64,000 bases of DNA from an uncultured Nitrosomonas sp. GTDB taxonomy: Bacteria; Pseudomonadota; Gammaproteobacteria; Burkholderiales; Nitrosomonadaceae. The stretch's first letter is position 1. The number at the start of each line of letters is the position of its first letter. The stretch is from the NCBI GenBank assembly GCA_949281375.1, contig CASDLT010000026.1, positions 1 to 64,000 of the forward strand, read 5' to 3'. Below the pieces are notes generated by a model. The model was not told the origin of the DNA. It did no database searches and worked only from the letters and a program-made list of their open reading frames with translations. Made by a program: the position numbers and the translations under genes. This document shows, piece after piece, positions 20,509-30,204 of the stretch.

Positions 20509-22176
20509 GTGCAGTTTTTTGGGTTTATATTTCGCGCAGCAGTATTGAGCGCATTGACAATGGCCATTGCCAATGCATCATCTGATCAAAAAACAACGTT
20601 AGATTTTCAAGTCATGCAGCAGAATTTCGTGCAAGTCGCGCAGCAGATGGCTGTTGATATGGGCAAACCGTTAGGCAATAAACCTTCCGATCAGGAAAAA
20701 TCATTGCCTGCGATTGAACCGGAAAAAAAAGTAGCAGAAGTTAAGAAACCGACCAGCTATCATCAACGATCTAACAGCTACGCCACCAATCCAGATTCCG
20801 ATCCGCCGCGCTACGTGCGCCAATTGAGCGATATCGGCGTGGAGGCATTCAAGGATGTCACCTGGCTGGATATCGGTTTTGAGCATCGTACCCGCTACGA
20901 ATGGCGTAACAACGACATACGGCGTATCGAGGGTGGCGAGGATAATCCGTTTTTCTTGCGCAATCGGGCCTGGATCGGGATAAAAAATATTCTGGATCCG
21001 TTCCGGTTCGCGGTCGAATTCCAGGATTCGCGCGTCTACAACAATAAACATGCCATTACCGATCAGGAAAGAAATGAGTTCGACCTGCTGAATGCCTATG
21101 GCGAATTGAATTTCAAAAAAGCGCTCGGTGTCGATGATCGCGGCAATGACCGTCCGATTCGTTTCCGTGTCGGCCGCATGGCGTATGAAGTCACAGACCG
21201 TCGTTTTATCGCACGTAACGAATGGCGCAACACCACCAATACCTTTGAAGGTTTCCGTCTGAATTTGGGAAAGGAAGCCAATGACTGGGAATTGGATCTG
21301 TTCGGCATGCAGCCGGTTAGACGCCTGCAAACCAAATTCGATGAAGCCAACGATCATTTATGGTTTTTCGGCGCAATCGGAACCTTGCGCAAATGGTCTG
21401 ACATAGCCACCCTGCAAGCTTATTACATGGGCCAGAAACAAACGGCTGACCCGAATGGCTTTACCGCCACCAACCGGCTTGACCGCCAGATCCACATGCC
21501 CGGATTCCGTATCTACGGCAAGGCTGCTCACTACTTTGATTTCGATGTCAGCTATAACCATCAATTGGGATTTAGTGGCGCAAACCGTGTTGATGCGCAT
21601 GGTTACACCATTGAACTCGGAAAAACCTTTGACCATGCTTGGAAGCCGCGCGTCAACTTGTTTTATGGCTATGCCACGGGTGATAAGAATCCGACCGATA
21701 ATGTCGACAACCGCTTTGACCGGTTCTTTGGATTTGCGCGGCCGTGGTCTGCCGATCATTACGTGATCTATGAAAATTTGAAAGCGCCTAAAATCAGGTT
21801 TGAGTTTCAGCCAACCCAAAAACTGGGGTTTGAAATGGGCTATGGTGGATATTGGCTAGCCAGTAAAACTGACCGCATGTTCGATATTCTCGATGGCAAT
21901 ATCAGCAATACCGTGCGCGATCCTGGATTCAATCGCGATCGCACCGGCCAAAGCGGCGATTTCGGCGGTCATTCCTTTGAAGGGCGGATACGTTATCAAC
22001 CCACGCCACGAATCAATACCATCCTCGGCTACACCCACTTCACCGCAGGTGAGTTTGTGAAAAACCGCATCGCTGCGGCGCCGCATTGCGACACCAGCGG
22101 CGTGCAGCCTTGCGTGGATCAACGCTCAGGCAATACGGATTTCCTGTACTTTGAAGTGTTAATCAGTCTTTTGTAA
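20509..22176 (+). CDS. Alginate-export-type outer membrane porin
   Basis: A GTG start has AGGAGA seven bases upstream. A signal peptide ends near AIANA, followed by about 80 polar residues. From residue 110 on, the sequence shows repeated amphipathic strands rich in aromatic residues and is of the alginate_exp (AlgE-like) type, with IGFEHRTRYEWRNNDI near the start of the barrel and the usual RVGRMAYEVTDRRFIARNEW segment. It ends in YFEVLISLL. Placed immediately before the sulfate-binding protein, it is probably the outer-membrane entry for sulfate or an organosulfur anion rather than an alginate exporter. That is inferred. Confidence 0.82.
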   Translation: MQFFGFIFRAAVLSALTMAIANASSDQKTTLDFQVMQQNFVQVAQQMAVDMGKPLGNKPSDQEKSLPAIEPEKKVAEVKKPTSYHQRSNSYATNPDSDPPRYVRQLSDIGVEAFKDVTWLDIGFEHRTRYEWRNNDIRRIEGGEDNPFFLRNRAWIGIKNILDPFRFAVEFQDSRVYNNKHAITDQERNEFDLLNAYGELNFKKALGVDDRGNDRPIRFRVGRMAYEVTDRRFIARNEWRNTTNTFEGFRLNLGKEANDWELDLFGMQPVRRLQTKFDEANDHLWFFGAIGTLRKWSDIATLQAYYMGQKQTADPNGFTATNRLDRQIHMPGFRIYGKAAHYFDFDVSYNHQLGFSGANRVDAHGYTIELGKTFDHAWKPRVNLFYGYATGDKNPTDNVDNRFDRFFGFARPWSADHYVIYENLKAPKIRFEFQPTQKLGFEMGYGGYWLASKTDRMFDILDGNISNTVRDPGFNRDRTGQSGDFGGHSFEGRIRYQPTPRINTILGYTHFTAGEFVKNRIAAAPHCDTSGVQPCVDQRSGNTDFLYFEVLISLL

Positions 22177-22204: not shown

Positions 22205-23209
22205 ATGACAATGAAAACCTGGATAACTACAAGTTTGCTTACCGCGAGCTTGCTGATCAGCAGTACTGTGCTGGCCGAAAAAACCTTATTGAATGTTTCA
22301 TACGATCCCACTCGCGAGCTGTATCAGGAATTCAATACGTCTTTTGCCAAATATTGGCAAGCCAAAAACAATGAAAAGGTCGTCGTCCGGCAATCGCACG
22401 GTGGCTCGGGCAAGCAAGCCCGTTCCGTCATCGATGGCCTGGAAGCTGATGTGGTCACGTTGGCGCTTGCCAATGACATTAATGCCATTGCCGAAAAAGC
22501 CAAATTGCTGCCGGAAGATTGGCAAAAACGCCTTGCGCTGAATAGCACGCCCTATACATCAACCATCATTTTCCTGGTGCGTAAAGGCAACCCCAAGGGC
22601 ATCAAGGACTGGGATGATCTGGCGCAACCCGGCATCGCCGTCATTACCCCGAACCCGAAAACCTCGGGGGGCGCCCAATGGAATTATCTGGCGGCATGGC
22701 AGTTTGGCACTCGCAAATTCAACGGCGACGAAAGCCAAGTCAAGGAATTCGTCTCGAATATCTACAAGAATGTACCGGTTTTGGATTCAGGTGCGCGCGG
22801 TTCAACCACGACTTTTGTTGAGCGTGGGGTCGGCGATGTACTGATTTCTTGGGAGAACGAAGCATTTCTCGCGCTGAAGGAATATGGCGCAAATAAATTC
22901 GAGATTGTCATTCCTTCATTAAGCATCCTGGCGGAGCCACCGGTCGCGGTCGTCGATAAGGTCGTCGATAAAAAGGGTACTCGTAAAGTCGCCGAAGCCT
23001 ATCTCGAGTATCTTTATTCCGAAGAAGGACAAGAAATCGCAGCCAAGCATTTTTACCGTCCTACCAATCAGAAGGTTGCTGAAAAGCACGCCGCGAAGTT
23101 TCCCAAGATTGAATTATTCAAAATCGACGAGGCATTCGGCGGCTGGAAAAACGCCCATAAAGCACATTTTGCCGATGGCGGCACATTTGATCAGATTTAT
23201 TTGAAATAA
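22205..23209 (+). CDS. sbp: Periplasmic sulfate-binding protein
   Basis: Substrate-binding subunit of the CysTWA sulfate/thiosulfate importer. AGGAGAACGC precedes the ATG. A signal peptide ends near STVLA. Family hallmarks are [15 protein letters not shown] at the mature N-terminus, [26 protein letters not shown] and [19 protein letters not shown], whose Ser/Gly backbone contacts bind sulfate. The length of 334 residues is typical. The permease and ATPase genes are not adjacent but lie 4 kb downstream on the same strand, with the encapsulin genes between. A tight UUCG stem-loop follows the stop codon. Confidence 0.95.
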
Positions 23210-23252: not shown

Positions 23253-23567
23253 ATGGCTATTCTCATTGTCGGTGGTGACTACATCACCTCATTCAAACAA
23301 GTGGTTGCTAACCAGCATTCGATGCCGGTCGAACATTGGGATGGTCGCAAAAAAGAATTCAATAAACGTTCATTGCCCAACAAGATCCGGCTGGTCGTCG
23401 TGATATGTGATTATGTCAGTCATCGGCTTGCGCTTTCGATCAAAGAAAAGGCTAAACAGCGTGGTATACCGCTGCTTTTTTGCCATCGCTCGGTCAATGA
23501 GTTGAAACACAAGCTGCAACATATTTATTCAGCAGATCAAGAGGATTGTTGTCATTTTTTTCAATAG
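23253..23567 (+). CDS. DUF2325 domain protein
   Basis: Protein of 104 aa with a good AAGGAG ribosome-binding site. It begins AILIVGGDYITSFKQVV, the DUF2325 start, followed by VVVICDYVSHRLALSIKEKAKQ and PLLFCHRSVNEL. The fold looks like a small Rossmann-type alpha/beta domain. The last residues contain a cysteine pair (DQEDCCHFFQ). DUF2325 has no established function. Members occur alone or fused to other domains. Its place between sbp and the encapsulin genes makes a role in sulfur response or in loading or regulating the compartment worth considering, but nothing in the sequence proves it. Confidence 0.8.
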   Translation: MAILIVGGDYITSFKQVVANQHSMPVEHWDGRKKEFNKRSLPNKIRLVVVICDYVSHRLALSIKEKAKQRGIPLLFCHRSVNELKHKLQHIYSADQEDCCHFFQ

Positions 23568-23648: not shown

Positions 23649-24482
23649 ATGAAGACATCCATAAATACATCATTTAAATCCGCCGATGAATTTGAACTGA
23701 TCCATTCGGCCACCGATTATGCACTTCGAAGGTCAGAAAACGGCTGGGTGAGCGGGCTTTTTTATCATTGCGAGATCACGAGTGTTTTTCAGCCCATCTT
23801 CAGCATCAACGATAATCGAACCATTGGACAAGCAGCTTACATTCGCTCCAAATCGAATGACGATGTTGAGCTGTGGCCTTGGCAGGTTTTCTCTCTGGCA
23901 TCCAAGGATGACCAGCTGATAGAGTTGGATCGCTTGTGCCGGGCAATTCATGCGCTCAATTATTATTTCAATCACGACTCGAAACTGGATCATTTATTTG
24001 TCGATGTGCATCCGCGATTGCTGGAAAGCGTCAAGGATGATCATGGCCGGGCATTCGAGAATTTTCTTGATCTGATCGGCATGAAAACGTCGCGGGTAGT
24101 GATAGGAATTCCAGCCATTGTGAATCGAAACTGGAAATTATTGCAACATGTCATCGCCAACTACCGTTCACGCGGCTATCAAATCGCCGCAAATTATAGC
24201 GGCACGCAAAGCGACTGGATGGTGGAGCTCGGTAGTTTATATCCCGACATCGTTCGCATCGAAGCGAGCGATCTGATCCAGCATGATGCAATCAACGCCT
24301 TGGCAGACACCATTCATGGCTTTGGTTCCAAGTTACTGGTGAGAGATATCGAGACCACAAAGCAATTAGCGACGGTCCTGCACACCGATGCGGATTATCT
24401 GCAAGGTAATTTATTGAGTGAACCGGTGCGGGAAATCACTAAGATTGAAGTGTTGCCGGTTTCAGAAGCAGAAGTTCATTAA
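23649..24482 (+). CDS. Degenerate EAL-domain protein
   Basis: Protein of 277 aa covering one EAL fold. The start VFQPIFSINDNRTIGQ aligns with the FQPI region of c-di-GMP phosphodiesterases, but the EALLR motif is replaced by AAYIR, so the catalytic glutamate is absent. The later DDFG region reads AANYSGTQ, and the KID motif reads RIEASD. All metal-binding positions I can place are changed, so it cannot be an active phosphodiesterase. It may act as a protein-binding or regulatory domain. No GGDEF domain is attached. TGGAGATCGCTCC precedes the ATG. It lies just upstream of the encapsulin gene in the same direction. Confidence 0.82.
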   Translation: MKTSINTSFKSADEFELIHSATDYALRRSENGWVSGLFYHCEITSVFQPIFSINDNRTIGQAAYIRSKSNDDVELWPWQVFSLASKDDQLIELDRLCRAIHALNYYFNHDSKLDHLFVDVHPRLLESVKDDHGRAFENFLDLIGMKTSRVVIGIPAIVNRNWKLLQHVIANYRSRGYQIAANYSGTQSDWMVELGSLYPDIVRIEASDLIQHDAINALADTIHGFGSKLLVRDIETTKQLATVLHTDADYLQGNLLSEPVREITKIEVLPVSEAEVH

Positions 24483-24591: not shown

Positions 24592-25509
24592 ATGACAGAT
24601 ATCCATCAAGCTCATACTGCATTGGGTGATGTAGCTGCTAGGACGCTGGCGAATGCGACCAAAACCGTTCCCATGATGGGAACGATTACACCGCGTTGGC
24701 TGACTCATCTACTGCAATGGGTGCCGGTCGAAGCGGGTATTTATCGTGTGAACAAAGTAAAGGATCCCGATCAGGTCGAAGTCGATTGCTCTGCCAAGGA
24801 TGAGCGTGAATTACCTGCGACCTTTGTGGATTATGAAGAGTGGGGCCGGGAATATGTATTGAACGCAGTTAATACCGTTCTGGATGTCCATACGCGCGTT
24901 TCCGATCTCTATAGCAGTCCGCATAATCAGATTCGCGAACAGTTGCGGCTCACCATCGAAACTGCAAAAGAGCGTCAGGAAAGTGAGCTCATCAACAACA
25001 AGGAATACGGTCTGCTTAATAATGCTGCTAAATCCATGAGAATAAAAACTCGCAAAGGCCCTCCTACACCGGATGATCTGGATGAGTTGATTTCGCGTGT
25101 TTGGAAAGAGCCGTCGTTCTTCCTGGCGCATCCTTTAGCGATCGCGGCATTTGGCCGTGAGTGCACACGCCGTGGCGTGCCTCCACCCACCACAACCCTT
25201 TTTGGCTCGCAGTTTTTAACATGGCGCGGAACCCCGCTCATTCCCAGCGACAAGCTCAACATTACCGGTGGCAAGACCAACATTATTTTGTTACGAACTG
25301 GCGAGAACCGTCAGGGAGTAGTAGGGCTATATCAACCTGATCTGCCAGGACAGCAAGGCATGGGATTGTCGGTGCGTTTCATGGGTATCAATCACAAAGC
25401 GATAGCATCGTATCTCGTTTCTCTCTATTGCTCTCTGGCAGTGCTGACAGAAGATGCGCTGGGTATTCTCGAACACGTGGATATCAGTAATTATCATGAG
25501 TACAAGTAA
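24592..25509 (+). CDS. Family 2A encapsulin shell protein (SrpI-like)
   Basis: Shell protein of a protein nanocompartment with HK97 phage-capsid fold, 305 aa. I recognise the family 2A type by TITPRWLTHLLQWVPVEAG near the start, the segment HNQIREQLRLTIETAKERQE, FFLAHPLAIAAFGRECTRRG and FLTWRGTPLIPSDKL near the end. There is no cyclic-nucleotide-binding domain, which separates it from family 2B. SrpI of cyanobacteria is induced by sulfur starvation and packages a cysteine desulfurase. Here the cargo gene overlaps the shell gene by 14 bases, so expression is coupled. AAGGAAAAAATAA precedes the ATG. The identity rests on motif memory and strong context. Confidence 0.9.
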   Translation: MTDIHQAHTALGDVAARTLANATKTVPMMGTITPRWLTHLLQWVPVEAGIYRVNKVKDPDQVEVDCSAKDERELPATFVDYEEWGREYVLNAVNTVLDVHTRVSDLYSSPHNQIREQLRLTIETAKERQESELINNKEYGLLNNAAKSMRIKTRKGPPTPDDLDELISRVWKEPSFFLAHPLAIAAFGRECTRRGVPPPTTTLFGSQFLTWRGTPLIPSDKLNITGGKTNIILLRTGENRQGVVGLYQPDLPGQQGMGLSVRFMGINHKAIASYLVSLYCSLAVLTEDALGILEHVDISNYHEYK

Positions 25510-27136
25510 GCATCGAGACGCCAGCTTGGACGGAATGCTGGATGCAGCCGCCCGGGCGGTCGATATTGAATTGCTGGCGCGGTTAACTGATGAAATATTG
25601 TCACCCTTGCCCGATTGGATAAAAAACGCAAATGCATCACCTTCCGCGCAATCACCTTACCCAGCACCCTCTGTGGAGATTCCCACATTTGCTTTGACGC
25701 ATTCTGTTGCGGCAATACCTTCTCCTGATCCAGTGACTGTTCCACTACCGTTTGAATCTGAGTTGCATGCCCTTCTCGCGCCATTCAAGAATGGCGCGTC
25801 TTTTTCCAATGTATCTGCCAGATCACCAAGCGGGTCTTCGTTTTATTTCCTTGATGAAATTGCTACGTCCGATCGCTTGGCGCAGTCAACCGATCCTATT
25901 TCTCTATCCCCGCCGTTTGATGTCAATCTCATCAAAGCCGATTTTCCGATTCTGAAAACCCGCGTCAATCATCGTCCGCTCATTTGGCTGGACAATGCCG
26001 CAACGACCCAGAAACCGCAATCGGTCATCGATCGGCTCAGTTACTACTATCAATACGAGAACTCCAACATTCATCGCGCCGCACATGAATTGGCTGCGCG
26101 CGCCACCGATGCCTATGAAGAAGCTCGAGAGAAAGTGCGGCGCTTTTTGCGTGCTTCTTCCGCAGATGAAATTGTTTTTGTTCGTGGTACCACCGAGGGC
26201 ATCAATCTAGTAGCTCAAAGCTGGGGAAGAAAGCATATCGAAGCGGGTGATGAAATCGTAATCACATGGCTAGAACATCATGCCAATATTGTTCCCTGGC
26301 AACAGTTGTGCGCTGAAAAAGGCGCGCGGTTGCGAATAGCGCCTGTCGATGATGATGGCCAGATTCTTCTGGATGAATATCAGAAATTGTTGGGTTCTCA
26401 CACAAAGTTGGTTGCTTTCTCGCAAGTATCGAATGCACTGGGCACCATCACGCCGGCTCGTCAAATGATCGAAATGGCGCATCGAGTCGGTGCGCGTGTG
26501 CTGGTCGATGGCGCCCAATCCGTTTCCCATATGCCAGTTGATGTGCAACAGCTCGATTGTGACTGGTTTGTATTTTCCGGTCACAAAGTATTCGGCCCAA
26601 CGGGGATCGGAGCGCTCTTCGGCAAGCTCGATGTGCTGAATGCAATGCCGCCGTGGCAAGGCGGAGGTAACATGATTCAGGATGTTACTTTTGAAAAAAC
26701 TATTTATCATAGCGCTCCCGCTCGCTTCGAAGCGGGTACGGGAAATATCGGTGATGCTATTGGGTTGGGTGCTGCAATTGATTACGTGGAGCGTATCGGT
26801 CTTGCCAACATCGGCCGTTATGAACATCAACTCATGGTTTACGCCACACGCAAGCTTTCTTCAGTTCCTGGATTGCACCTTATTGGTACGGCGCCTGACA
26901 AAGCGGGCGTGCTGTCGTTTGTGTTGCCTGGAATTGCATCTGAAAAAGTGGGTGAAGCGTTGAATCGTGAAGGCATTGCGGTGCGCTCCGGACATCATTG
27001 CGCGCAACCCATCCTGCGACGTTTTGGTGTGGAAACTACGGTGCGCCCTTCATTAGCGCTATACAACACTTGCGCTGACGTCGACGCGTTAGTCACTGCA
27101 GTGCATCGTATCCAGAATCAGCGTAATTATTTCTGA
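25496..27136 (+). CDS. Cysteine desulfurase, encapsulin cargo, with long N-terminal loading region
   Basis: Type II (SufS-like) PLP enzyme of 546 aa that releases sulfur from cysteine. The ATG at 25496, inside the last codons of the shell gene, is preferred to the track start. The catalytic domain begins near residue 141 (FDVNLIKADFPIL) and is complete: PLP lysine in SGHKVFGPTGIG (K364) and active cysteine in RSGHHCAQP (C502). The first 140 residues are Pro/Ser/Ala-rich and look disordered, with short hydrophobic islands IELLARLTDEIL and GSSFYFLDEI. Family 2A cargos use such an extension to enter the shell. No sufE or sufBCD is nearby, which favours sulfur storage over Fe-S assembly. Confidence 0.93.
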   Translation: MSTSKHRDASLDGMLDAAARAVDIELLARLTDEILSPLPDWIKNANASPSAQSPYPAPSVEIPTFALTHSVAAIPSPDPVTVPLPFESELHALLAPFKNGASFSNVSARSPSGSSFYFLDEIATSDRLAQSTDPISLSPPFDVNLIKADFPILKTRVNHRPLIWLDNAATTQKPQSVIDRLSYYYQYENSNIHRAAHELAARATDAYEEAREKVRRFLRASSADEIVFVRGTTEGINLVAQSWGRKHIEAGDEIVITWLEHHANIVPWQQLCAEKGARLRIAPVDDDGQILLDEYQKLLGSHTKLVAFSQVSNALGTITPARQMIEMAHRVGARVLVDGAQSVSHMPVDVQQLDCDWFVFSGHKVFGPTGIGALFGKLDVLNAMPPWQGGGNMIQDVTFEKTIYHSAPARFEAGTGNIGDAIGLGAAIDYVERIGLANIGRYEHQLMVYATRKLSSVPGLHLIGTAPDKAGVLSFVLPGIASEKVGEALNREGIAVRSGHHCAQPILRRFGVETTVRPSLALYNTCADVDALVTAVHRIQNQRNYF

Positions 27137-27385: not shown

Positions 27386-28219
27386 TTGAGTACTTTCAAA
27401 CAACACAGCATTTTGCCGGGTTTTAATTTGGCGATCGGATTTACATTGCTGTATTTAAGCTTGATCGTCCTGATTCCGCTATCCGCTGCGTTCATTCGCA
27501 CGGCTGAGCTGACGTGGTCGGAATTTTGGACCATTGTCACGGCTCCGCGTGTCATGGCGTCGTATCGATTGACGTTCGGTGCTTCATTCGCGGCGGCAAT
27601 GGTGAATGCGTTTTTCGGGCTTTTAGTGGCGTGGGTACTGGTGAGATACCACTTCCCCGGCAAAAGAATCGTCGATGCGCTCGTCGATCTGCCTTTTGCG
27701 TTGCCGACAGCAGTCGCCGGGATCGCATTGACAGCGTTGTATGCAGGCAATGGCTGGATTGGTCAATTTCTCGAACCGCTCGGCGTCAAGGTCGCGTTTA
27801 CGCCGCTGGGCATTTTTGTGGCACTGACATTCATTGGTTTGCCATTCGTGGTACGGACGGTGCAACCGGTATTGGAAGACATCGAAGCGGAATTGGAAGA
27901 AGCGGCAGCGACATTGGGCGCAAATCGCTGGCAAACGTTTTCGATGGTCATTTTCCCGGCGCTGTTCCCGGCCTTGATGACGGGGTTTGCGCTGGCGTTC
28001 GCGCGCGCCATCGGTGAATACGGATCGGTGATTTTCATCGCCGGCAACATGCCGATGGTTTCTGAAATTACGCCGCTGCTGATCATCACCAAACTGGAGC
28101 AGTACGATTACGCCGGCGCTACCGCCTTATCGGTGGTGATGCTGGTGATTTCTTTTATTCTGTTGCTGATCATCAACTTGTTGCAATGGTGGAGTCGGCG
28201 GCGTAGTAGTAAAACATAA
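27386..28219 (+). CDS. cysT: Sulfate ABC transporter permease CysT
   Basis: Inner-membrane subunit of the sulfate/thiosulfate importer, 277 aa with about six helices. A TTG start follows AGAGG at eight bases. The N-terminus ([29 protein letters not shown]) is typical of CysT/CysU. The ATPase-coupling EAA loop reads [27 protein letters not shown], and the family segment [18 protein letters not shown] is present. It starts the cysT-cysW-cysA run and works with the Sbp protein encoded 4 kb upstream. Confidence 0.95.
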
Positions 28220-28231
28220 GGTGATTTATTG

Positions 28232-29110
28232 ATGACTGCAATGACATTTCCTCTACCGGCGGGTACGCGCATTCAACGCGCGACCCAGGAACCCGCGTGG
28301 GTGCGCTGGTTTTTGATTGGACTGGCGCTGGTATTTTTGACGTTGTTTTTGTTTATACCTTTGGTGTCGGTGTTTTATGAAGCCTTCAAGAAAGGGGTAG
28401 ACGTTTATTTGGCTTCAATCACCGATCCAGATGCGCTTTCTGCTATCAAATTGACGCTTACGGTAGCGGCGATTGCCGTGCCTTTGAATTTAGTGTTTGG
28501 TATCGCCGCAGCATGGGCGATCGCCAAGTTTGAGTTTCGCGGCAAGAATTTGTTGATCACACTGATTGATCTGCCTTTTTCGGTATCGCCGGTCGTGTCT
28601 GGCCTGATTTATGTGCTGGTGTTTGGGCTACAGGGGTGGTTCGGGCCATGGTTGGCCGAGCATGACATGAAAATCATTTTCGCGGTACCCGGGATTGTGC
28701 TGGCGACGGTGTTTGTGACGGTACCCTTCATCGCCCGTGAATTGATTCCACTGATGCAGGCGCAGGGTACCGAAGAGGAGGAAGCCGCGGTTGTGCTGGG
28801 CACGAGCGGCTGGCAGACGTTTTATAAAGTGACGTTGCCAAATATCAAATGGGGCTTGCTGTATGGCGCTATCCTTTGCAATGCTCGGGCGATGGGTGAA
28901 TTCGGGGCAGTATCGGTGGTGTCTGGACACATACGAGGTAGCACCAACACGATGCCGCTGCATGTCGAAATTCTTTACAATGAATACAATTTTGCAGCGG
29001 CATTTGCAGTGGCTTCGCTGCTGGCGCTGCTGGCCTTGGTGACCCTCGTGCTGAAGACATTGGTCGAGCTCCGCATTAAACAACAAGACACTCCAAGAGG
29101 TTCCGAATGA
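28232..29110 (+). CDS. cysW: Sulfate ABC transporter permease CysW
   Basis: Second membrane subunit of the importer, about 292 aa. The ATG at 28232 has AAGGTGATT upstream; the track begins one codon earlier at a TTG. Six helices are visible. The EAA loop is [28 protein letters not shown], and the conserved [18 protein letters not shown] stretch identifies CysW. The stop overlaps the cysA start (ATGA), so the two are translationally coupled. Twelve bases separate it from cysT. Confidence 0.95.
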
Positions 29111-30204
29111 GCATCGAAGTCCTACATCTTTCCAAACATTTTGGCACATTTACGGCATTGCATGACGTCAACCTGCAAGTCAATTCCGGCGAGTTGCTGG
29201 CGCTTCTGGGGCCTTCCGGTTCCGGAAAAACCACCCTGCTGCGTGTTATCGCAGGGCTTGAAACTGCTGATAGCGGTCAGGTGCTGTTCCACGGTGAAGA
29301 CGCTACCGACCAGCATGTGCGCGAGCGCCAGGTGGGCTTTGTATTCCAGCATTACGCGCTGTTTCGCAACATGACGATTTTTGAGAACGTGGCGTTCGGT
29401 TTGCGCGTGCGTCCAAAGAAATTCCGCCCTTCCCATGCTGAAATCCGCGACCGGGTCATGGCATTGTTGCACCTGGTGCAATTGGATTGGCTGGCAGACC
29501 GCTATCCCCACCAACTTTCCGGGGGGCAGCGTCAGCGTATCGCACTGGCTAGGGCATTGGCGGTGGAACCCAAGGTACTGCTGCTCGATGAGCCGTTTGG
29601 AGCGCTCGATGCCAAGGTGCGCAAGGAGTTGCGTTCATGGCTGCGCAGATTGCACGATGACATGCACATCACCAGTGTATTTGTCACGCATGATCAGGAA
29701 GAGGCGCTGGAAGTTGCCGACCGCGTGGTGGTGATGAATGAAGGCCGTATTGAACAAATCGGCACACCTGATGAGGTGTATGAGCAACCCGCAAGTCCTT
29801 TTGTGTATGAATTCCTCGGCCATGTGAATCTGTTCCACAGCCGATTGCACCGTGGTCATGCATGGATTGGCGATATCGCCGTTGCGGCGCCGGAACATGC
29901 CGAAGCCGAAGAACGCTCAGCGATTGCCTACGTGCGACCGCATGAGATCGAGGTTGAACGCGTCCAAACCGGTGGAGCGGCCATGGCTGCGCTGGTCGTG
30001 CATATCTTGTCCATCGGTCCGATCGTGCGATTGGAGCTGGTGCGTAAAAACGATGAAGATATCACGCCTATTCAGGTGGAGATCAGCAAGGAGCGATTTC
30101 GTGAATTGCAACTGACGAAAGGCGATGAAGTGTTTATCAAACCCCGCCGGCTGGATTTGTTTCCAAATCAGTACGAAGAGGCGAGCAAATCGACTCGCCT
30201 TTGA
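29107..30204 (+). CDS. cysA: Sulfate ABC transporter ATPase CysA
   Basis: Drives the CysTW importer by ATP hydrolysis, 365 aa. Walker A is [10 protein letters not shown] near residue 36, the Q-loop region is [16 protein letters not shown], the signature is [15 protein letters not shown], Walker B is [12 protein letters not shown], and the switch histidine is in FVTHDQEEA. The C-terminal 120 residues are the TOBE-like regulatory domain with [12 protein letters not shown]. It is the last gene of the sulfur island. Its stop codon lies inside the outer arm of a large hairpin. Confidence 0.97.

Follow-up and report, generated by a model that had tools for sequence, protein, structure and literature searches.

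Degenerate EAL proteins have been described in several regulatory settings. BluF is a degenerate EAL protein that has been proposed to descend from a phosphodiesterase and that antagonizes the neighboring regulator BluR (PMC3509220), and YdiV, also degenerate, acts on FlhDC and Fur (PMC3510510, PMC7515728). Residues R479 and D507 of FimX contact c-di-GMP (PMC3527489), and LapD binds this nucleotide with a KVL motif (PMC3032553). A link between such proteins and sulfur operons was not described in the literature open to us (subscription papers were beyond reach), and searches for encapsulin with EAL, CysB with EAL, sulfate transporter with EAL, and Nitrosomonas EAL with sulfate transport returned no relevant result. 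The main texts of the two papers that define the family 2A encapsulins do not mention EAL (PMC8049743, PMC8346489).

Here, we studied a stand-alone EAL gene, EAL-1, within a 64,000-nucleotide stretch of DNA (the window) from an uncultured Nitrosomonas sp. (assembly GCA_949281375.1, contig CASDLT010000026.1, positions 1 to 64,000). The original prediction for this gene was that it encodes a catalytically dead EAL protein with a complete fold, retained next to an encapsulin as a regulatory or scaffold protein in the sulfur response.

Fold, catalytic positions and selection

EAL-1 (P0001; 23649..24482, + strand) encodes a degenerate stand-alone EAL-fold protein of 277 aa, an assignment that draws on the Pfam EAL match, a structure model, alignment, and dN/dS. 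The reading frame is exact, running from the ATG at 23649 to a stop codon that ends at 24482, with 277 codons and no internal stops. Pfam EAL (PF00563) matches the product with 85.2 bits against a cut-off of 31.3, covering positions 10-236 of the 236-position profile, and in NCBIfam no model reaches its cut-off. PadR and other weak Pfam and PDB matches fell under their cut-offs and were discarded. The AlphaFold2 model (m4c6316bf4b38; pLDDT 83.5, pTM 0.82) is loose only at residues 1-9 and 259-277, the C-terminal 19 residues being disordered, and its fold matches in the PDB are EAL domains, including 3n3t, BifA, YkuI, and MorA (E-values down to 1.8e-13, TM 0.62-0.67), with FimX and the Thiobacillus denitrificans protein 2r6o/3n3t also among the best. 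Among solved structures, YkuI is the closest in sequence (E 1.9e-7 with the single sequence and 1.1e-15 with the family profile A1). Profile match and fold thus both place EAL-1 in the EAL domain family, and the complete fold and intact gene that had been claimed for it are confirmed.

Residues were assigned by aligning EAL-1 with eight EAL domains from the same genome in which the motif is kept, and with five relatives that are stand-alone and intact. On the + strand, the former EAL motif (codons 62-64; 23832..23840) now reads A-A-Y, with E replaced by A and L by Y; the former DD of DDFG (codons 182-183; 24192..24197) is N-Y; and the former E of EGVE (codon 232; 24342..24344) is R. In the same alignment the metal-binding N corresponds to D119, the E of ExT to G153, and the catalytic K to R203. 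Among the eight classical positions Q252 is the sole survivor, all seven core metal and catalytic positions being replaced, and the residue set of c-di-GMP-specific phosphodiesterases (EAL glutamate, N, E, DD, K, E) is therefore absent. The claim that every placeable position is changed holds for the AAY motif and these seven core positions but goes too far elsewhere, because Q252 (of QG), R66 (of EALxR), Q48 (of FQP), and P259 are kept. Of the candidate nucleotide-contact positions, R66, D94, Q48, Q252, and P259 are retained, and L64 and E232 are changed.

Most of these features extend to the set of 70 EAL-1 sequences formed by orthologues and duplicates within the family. Of these, 69 have lost the EAL glutamate, and all 70 have lost the second D of DD and the catalytic K (R in 66); the first D is still D in 6/70 and in one of two MID proteins, and DD has also been lost in other degenerate relatives. 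Position 232 is R in 44/70 and E in none, and in several other degenerate relatives it is K or H. E153 is retained in 67/70, with G153 peculiar to the window protein and its closest relative, that of Nitrosomonas sp. JL21 (L047). R66 is kept in 68/70, Q48 in 70/70, Q252 in 67/70, and P259 in 57/70. Judged by these alignments, EAL-1 is a predicted catalytically dead EAL protein in which part of the old pocket is conserved.

The gene is maintained by strong purifying selection. Measurable pairs gave a dN/dS of 0.092 against the closest orthologue (L047, 86% identical) and of ~0.06 against two orthologues that are 76% identical, dS being saturated in more distant pairs; the same comparison gave 0.02-0.06 for Sbp, CysT, and CysW and ~0.13 for the DUF2325 gene. 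With one exception, the listed EAL-1 matches have intact reading frames. A pseudogene reading was rejected on the basis of dN/dS.

The sulfate-uptake operon and its optional encapsulin cassette

EAL-1 lies in an operon whose genes are all on the + strand, in the order porin, Sbp, DUF2325, EAL-1, encapsulin, cargo desulfurase, CysT, CysW, CysA. The first gene encodes an outer-membrane porin of the Alginate_exp type (20509..22176; Pfam PF13372, 328.7 bits) that is conserved upstream of Sbp, the sulfate-binding protein of the ABC transporter (22205..23209; NCBIfam NF008022, 523.5 bits). A small DUF2325 protein (23253..23567; Pfam PF10087, 55 bits) follows, recognized by synteny as a frequent companion between Sbp and EAL-1. 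Beyond EAL-1 come the two genes of an optional cassette, a family 2A encapsulin shell protein (24592..25509; NCBIfam NF041162, 528.5 bits) and the encapsulin cargo cysteine desulfurase (25454..27136; NCBIfam NF041166, 871.4 bits), and then the permeases CysT (27386..28219; Pfam PF00528), which is conserved near EAL-1, and CysW (28229..29110; assigned by ORF and synteny), and the ATPase CysA with its C-terminal regulatory domain (29107..30204; Pfam PF00005, PF17850, and PF12857). The listed start of the cargo desulfurase gene falls inside the encapsulin gene, whose last 56 bases (25454-25509) it shares in another frame.

The order Sbp-(DUF2325)-EAL-1-[encapsulin-cargo]-CysT-W-A recurs in nearly all of the family loci that were fetched. 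Most family operons encode the DUF2325 protein, of ~100 aa with a conserved HWxGR stretch, between Sbp and EAL-1, and most Nitrosomonas copies carry a C-terminal cysteine cluster. Two EAL-1 copies are adjacent, or nearly so, in six loci (L055, L080, L082, L083, L087, and L095), and the copies within one genome are clearly different; in L087 DUF2325 and EAL are duplicated together as one unit.

The genome of the window belongs to Nitrosomonadaceae, with Nitrosomonas, Nitrosospira, and Nitrosovibrio as its named near relatives. EAL-1 is present in 67 of 125 Nitrosomonadaceae genomes, a close Sbp in 95, and encapsulin in 31. Sbp of this type accompanies EAL-1 in 64 of the 67, and a further 31 family genomes have Sbp without EAL-1; thus, EAL-1 is not essential for the transporter. 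In many genomes that lack EAL-1, Sbp runs directly into CysT. In two genomes in which Sbp was not detected (L081 and L092, both on short contigs), EAL-1 adjoins a glycerophosphodiester phosphodiesterase gene, named from sequence, and not sulfur genes.

The encapsulin, in contrast to the transporter, comes and goes. It is present in 30 of the 67 EAL-1 genomes and absent from 37. In 19 genomes the encapsulin-cargo pair comes directly after EAL-1 (and ahead of CysT if CysT follows), in three Nitrosomonas genomes encapsulin lies after CysA, and in eight Nitrosospira genomes it is on a different contig or at least tens of kilobases from EAL-1. In Nitrosomonas sp. JL21, the first 25 encapsulin codons, 84% identical, persist between EAL-1 and CysT (L047 8813-8887), joined to the CysT leader, and this fused remnant indicates that the encapsulin-cargo cassette was deleted while EAL-1 stayed intact. 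In the reverse direction, EAL-1 occurs in 30 of the 31 encapsulin-positive family genomes, and among Sbp-positive genomes the two genes are associated (Fisher p = 1.2e-5, a statistic that ignores relatedness), a co-occurrence that we read as both being additions to the same type of operon. The consistent presence with the shell gene by which cargo and accessory proteins of family 2A encapsulins are recognized was not found for EAL-1. EAL-1 has its constant partner in the sulfate ABC transporter (Sbp-CysTWA) and not in the encapsulin. The 37 genomes without an encapsulin, the distant Nitrosospira copies, and the JL21 deletion leave a special link between the two unsupported, and the idea that EAL-1 belongs to the encapsulin system is corrected.

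An intact stand-alone EAL gene also occurs ~1.5 kb from a family 2A encapsulin match (66% identical) in a Phaeospirillum MAG (L190 1-3742), where no sulfate genes were found beside the EAL gene.

Degenerate relatives in sulfur operons and their tree

Relatives of roughly 25-35% identity were collected by scanning named genomes together with samples of the class and phylum. Degenerate relatives lie between Sbp and CysT in L182, L183, L186, L188, L189, and L270, a set that includes Candidatus Nitricoxidireducens, Chromatiales USCg, and a Burkholderiales MAG. They lie beside Sbp or CysT, or one gene off, in Sterolibacterium, Rhodocyclaceae, and an uncultured betaproteobacterium (L179, L184, L185, L187), and adjoin Sbp or are one gene away from it in Methylococcaceae (L201, L206). 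Accumulibacter (L180) has the order encapsulin-cargo-EAL-CysTWA with a degenerate EAL, and L232 has the order Sbp-EAL-CysD-CysN. In Parvibium (L181), the degenerate EAL follows ssuD-ssuC-ssuB-mop (ssuD and mop were named by NCBIfam, ssuC and ssuB from their sequences only), and in L267-L269 it is found with an SsuB-like ABC ATPase, accompanied by CysT in two of the three.

Among the relatives from outside Nitrosomonadaceae, 20 are linked to sulfur genes or CysB, and 19 of these are degenerate, the exception being the intact protein of Deefgea (L196); 45 of 47 unlinked relatives keep every catalytic residue, the other two being degenerate (Fisher p = 1.7e-13, ignoring relatedness; many unlinked loci were read over only 1.5 kb on each side). 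Loss is graded. Some relatives, of the Rhodocyclaceae type, still have three metal-site residues (E, N, and E) and lack DD, so that the loss of activity we infer for them rests on the missing DD. The expectation that homologues in other sulfate clusters would share similar substitutions was borne out in Accumulibacter, Rhodocyclaceae, Sterolibacterium, Parvibium, Chromatiales, and Methylococcaceae, and with it the tie of the dead EAL protein to sulfur genes. A Ser_hydrolase gene (PF06821) directly follows both the degenerate EAL of Parvibium (L181 9908-11375) and the intact EAL of Deefgea (L196 9872-11341), hinting at a shared older sulfur context.

A tree of 56 proteins groups EAL-1 with the Rhodocyclaceae type (support 100/97) and, separately, a second Nitrosomonas lineage, EAL-2, with the Chromatiales, Methylococcaceae, and L232 types (100/98). 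These two degenerate clades unite with moderate support (91/87) as a clade of 35 rows beside the intact stand-alone relatives. The simplest reading of this topology would be one origin followed by stepwise loss of catalytic residues; the alternative, which we do not prefer, is that the losses may have occurred separately in the two clades. D94 is invariant in the degenerate clade, and R123 and H132, located just past the strand that bore the metal-binding N, reach 97% and 100%, respectively, versus 3/18 and 7/18 of the intact relatives.

EAL-2 is only ~30% identical to EAL-1 and lacks Q48 and R66, and the two may have different partners. It lies either after CysA or divergent from a LysR-type gene of the CysB family, with a gap of 135-245 bp in all six Nitrosomonas loci checked in which it does not follow CysA. 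The genome of the window has its own EAL-2 (C24:183246-184046), paired with a regulator (C24:182124-182993) that is distinct from its main CysB (C40:232854-233780); the two genes together span C24:182124-184046 (L111 6849-8825). The pair was found in five further Nitrosomonas loci, and in L244 the degenerate EAL adjoins a homologous regulator. Because genes of the CysB family commonly follow cysA in Betaproteobacteria, their nearness to EAL-1 counts for little as evidence; specificity is confined to the divergent EAL-2 pairs, which provide what appears to be the best hint of the partner class.

Candidate roles and comparison with known systems

The distribution points to sulfur-response regulators of a new, non-enzymatic family that is independent of the neighboring encapsulin. 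By analogy with BluF and YdiV, we give about even weight to the reading of EAL-1 as an inactive phosphodiesterase that has become a dedicated, non-enzymatic regulatory adaptor of sulfate uptake. The ancestor would have been a stand-alone c-di-GMP phosphodiesterase; the metal-binding residues would have been lost, and the protein then kept as a regulator of sulfur assimilation. EAL-1 would act by protein contact, most probably with a CysB-type regulator (or with the CysTWA transporter) whose activity it would alter with sulfur supply, and the retained Q48, R66, D94, Q252, and P259 may leave room for a bound nucleotide that gates the contact. The regulatory half of the role originally proposed in the sulfur response is thus plausible in the context of a sulfur operon; nothing points to the scaffold half.

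Several other explanations compete with the adaptor. EAL-1 could link sulfate uptake to c-di-GMP as a non-hydrolyzing receptor of this nucleotide, similar to FimX or LapD, and we regard this as unlikely though worth keeping in view. R66, Q48, Q252, and P259 are conserved in most orthologues; R66 and D94, the latter invariant in the degenerate clade, match FimX R479 and D507 by ungapped offset; and the genome encodes many other EAL proteins, mostly strong EAL matches. The retention of R66 and D94 is what gives this role its standing. However, L64 has become Y and E232 has become R, both near the nucleotide by motif, Q48 and R66 are lost in EAL-2, and the degenerate EAL of BluF binds no c-di-GMP even when consensus residues are restored (PMC3509220). 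A sulfur-status sensor, in which the former metal site now binds an anion or nucleotide of the sulfur pathway (sulfate, APS, PAPS, or O-acetylserine), seems to us distinctly improbable. It owes its place here to the change of acidic ligands to neutral or basic residues (E62A, D182N, D183Y, and E232R), and it would fit the near-invariance of R123 and H132 in the degenerate clade and the TIM-like phosphate-binding motif in EAL barrels noted in the FimX work (PMC3527489). The replacements vary between lineages, however, and thus define no single conserved new pocket except for R123 and H132.

We hold very little expectation that EAL-1 serves the encapsulin-cysteine desulfurase compartment as a component, scaffold, or accessory. 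The genes do adjoin in the window, nearly all encapsulin-positive family genomes have EAL-1, and encapsulin, cargo, and a degenerate EAL share one operon in Accumulibacter, but this reading is rejected by the distribution over genomes with no encapsulin or a distant one and by JL21, which deleted encapsulin and cargo and keeps EAL-1 under purifying selection; further, the EAL-1 model lacks a long disordered cargo tail. The least credible explanation, to which we give almost no weight, is that the gene is decaying or that it encodes an active phosphodiesterase whose residues are unusual. Loss of the EAL motif and the E, N, and E kept by several relatives could be read in this way, but dN/dS values of 0.06-0.09, frames that are almost always intact among the listed matches, and the replacement of all seven core positions in the window protein speak against it.

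Returning to the adaptor reading, a broader form of it is that stand-alone pseudo-phosphodiesterases, a widespread family with no name as yet, are the dedicated switch of bacterial sulfate (and alkanesulfonate) uptake, with a single YkuI-like origin and loss of the metal site within sulfur operons, controlling a CysB-type regulator or CysTWA and possibly gated by a sulfur metabolite or c-di-GMP; we advance this tentatively, with slightly less than even confidence. Regulation of bacterial sulfate uptake is usually explained via CysB and acetylserine. A conserved mid-operon protein in ammonia oxidizers, Accumulibacter, Rhodocyclaceae, and methane oxidizers suggests an extra layer of control, and the relatives offer stages of a passage from enzyme to regulator, from an intact protein near Sbp (Deefgea) through a half-lost metal site (Rhodocyclaceae) to a fully lost one (Nitrosomonas).

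Compared with described systems, the window resembles family 2A encapsulin-cysteine desulfurase loci (SrpI type) in having such a pair adjoining EAL-1, and differs in that EAL-1 is retained without encapsulin. YkuI of B. subtilis (PDB 2bas/2w27) is likewise a stand-alone EAL protein and the best PDB sequence match, and it is also among the top fold matches (TM 0.66), but its chain has 431 residues and binds c-di-GMP with Ca2+, whereas EAL-1 stops after the EAL fold, lacks the metal ligands, and has no second Pfam domain above cut-off, so that the EAL plus YkuI C-terminal domain architecture of the YkuI family is missing. The degenerate EAL domains of FimX and LapD share the fold, little or no catalysis, and some kept pocket residues; they are, however, parts of multidomain proteins with known c-di-GMP binding, whereas in EAL-1 the glutamate of the EAL motif is missing and R occupies the EGVE position. 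EAL-1 can also be likened to YdiV/RflP of E. coli and Salmonella, a single-domain degenerate EAL protein that acts through contact with other proteins and responds to nutrient limitation; YdiV is not known to lie in a transporter operon. BluF/YcgF of E. coli (BLUF-EAL) is a degenerate EAL encoded beside its regulator partner, as EAL-2 is divergent from a CysB-family gene, but EAL-1 has no BLUF or other sensor domain, and its candidate partner is of the LysR type rather than the MerR type. Like regulators of the BluF and YdiV kind, EAL-1 has the fold without the catalytic residues and is under selection. Degenerate EAL regulators are already a known kind; the link to sulfur operons appears new against the literature open to us.
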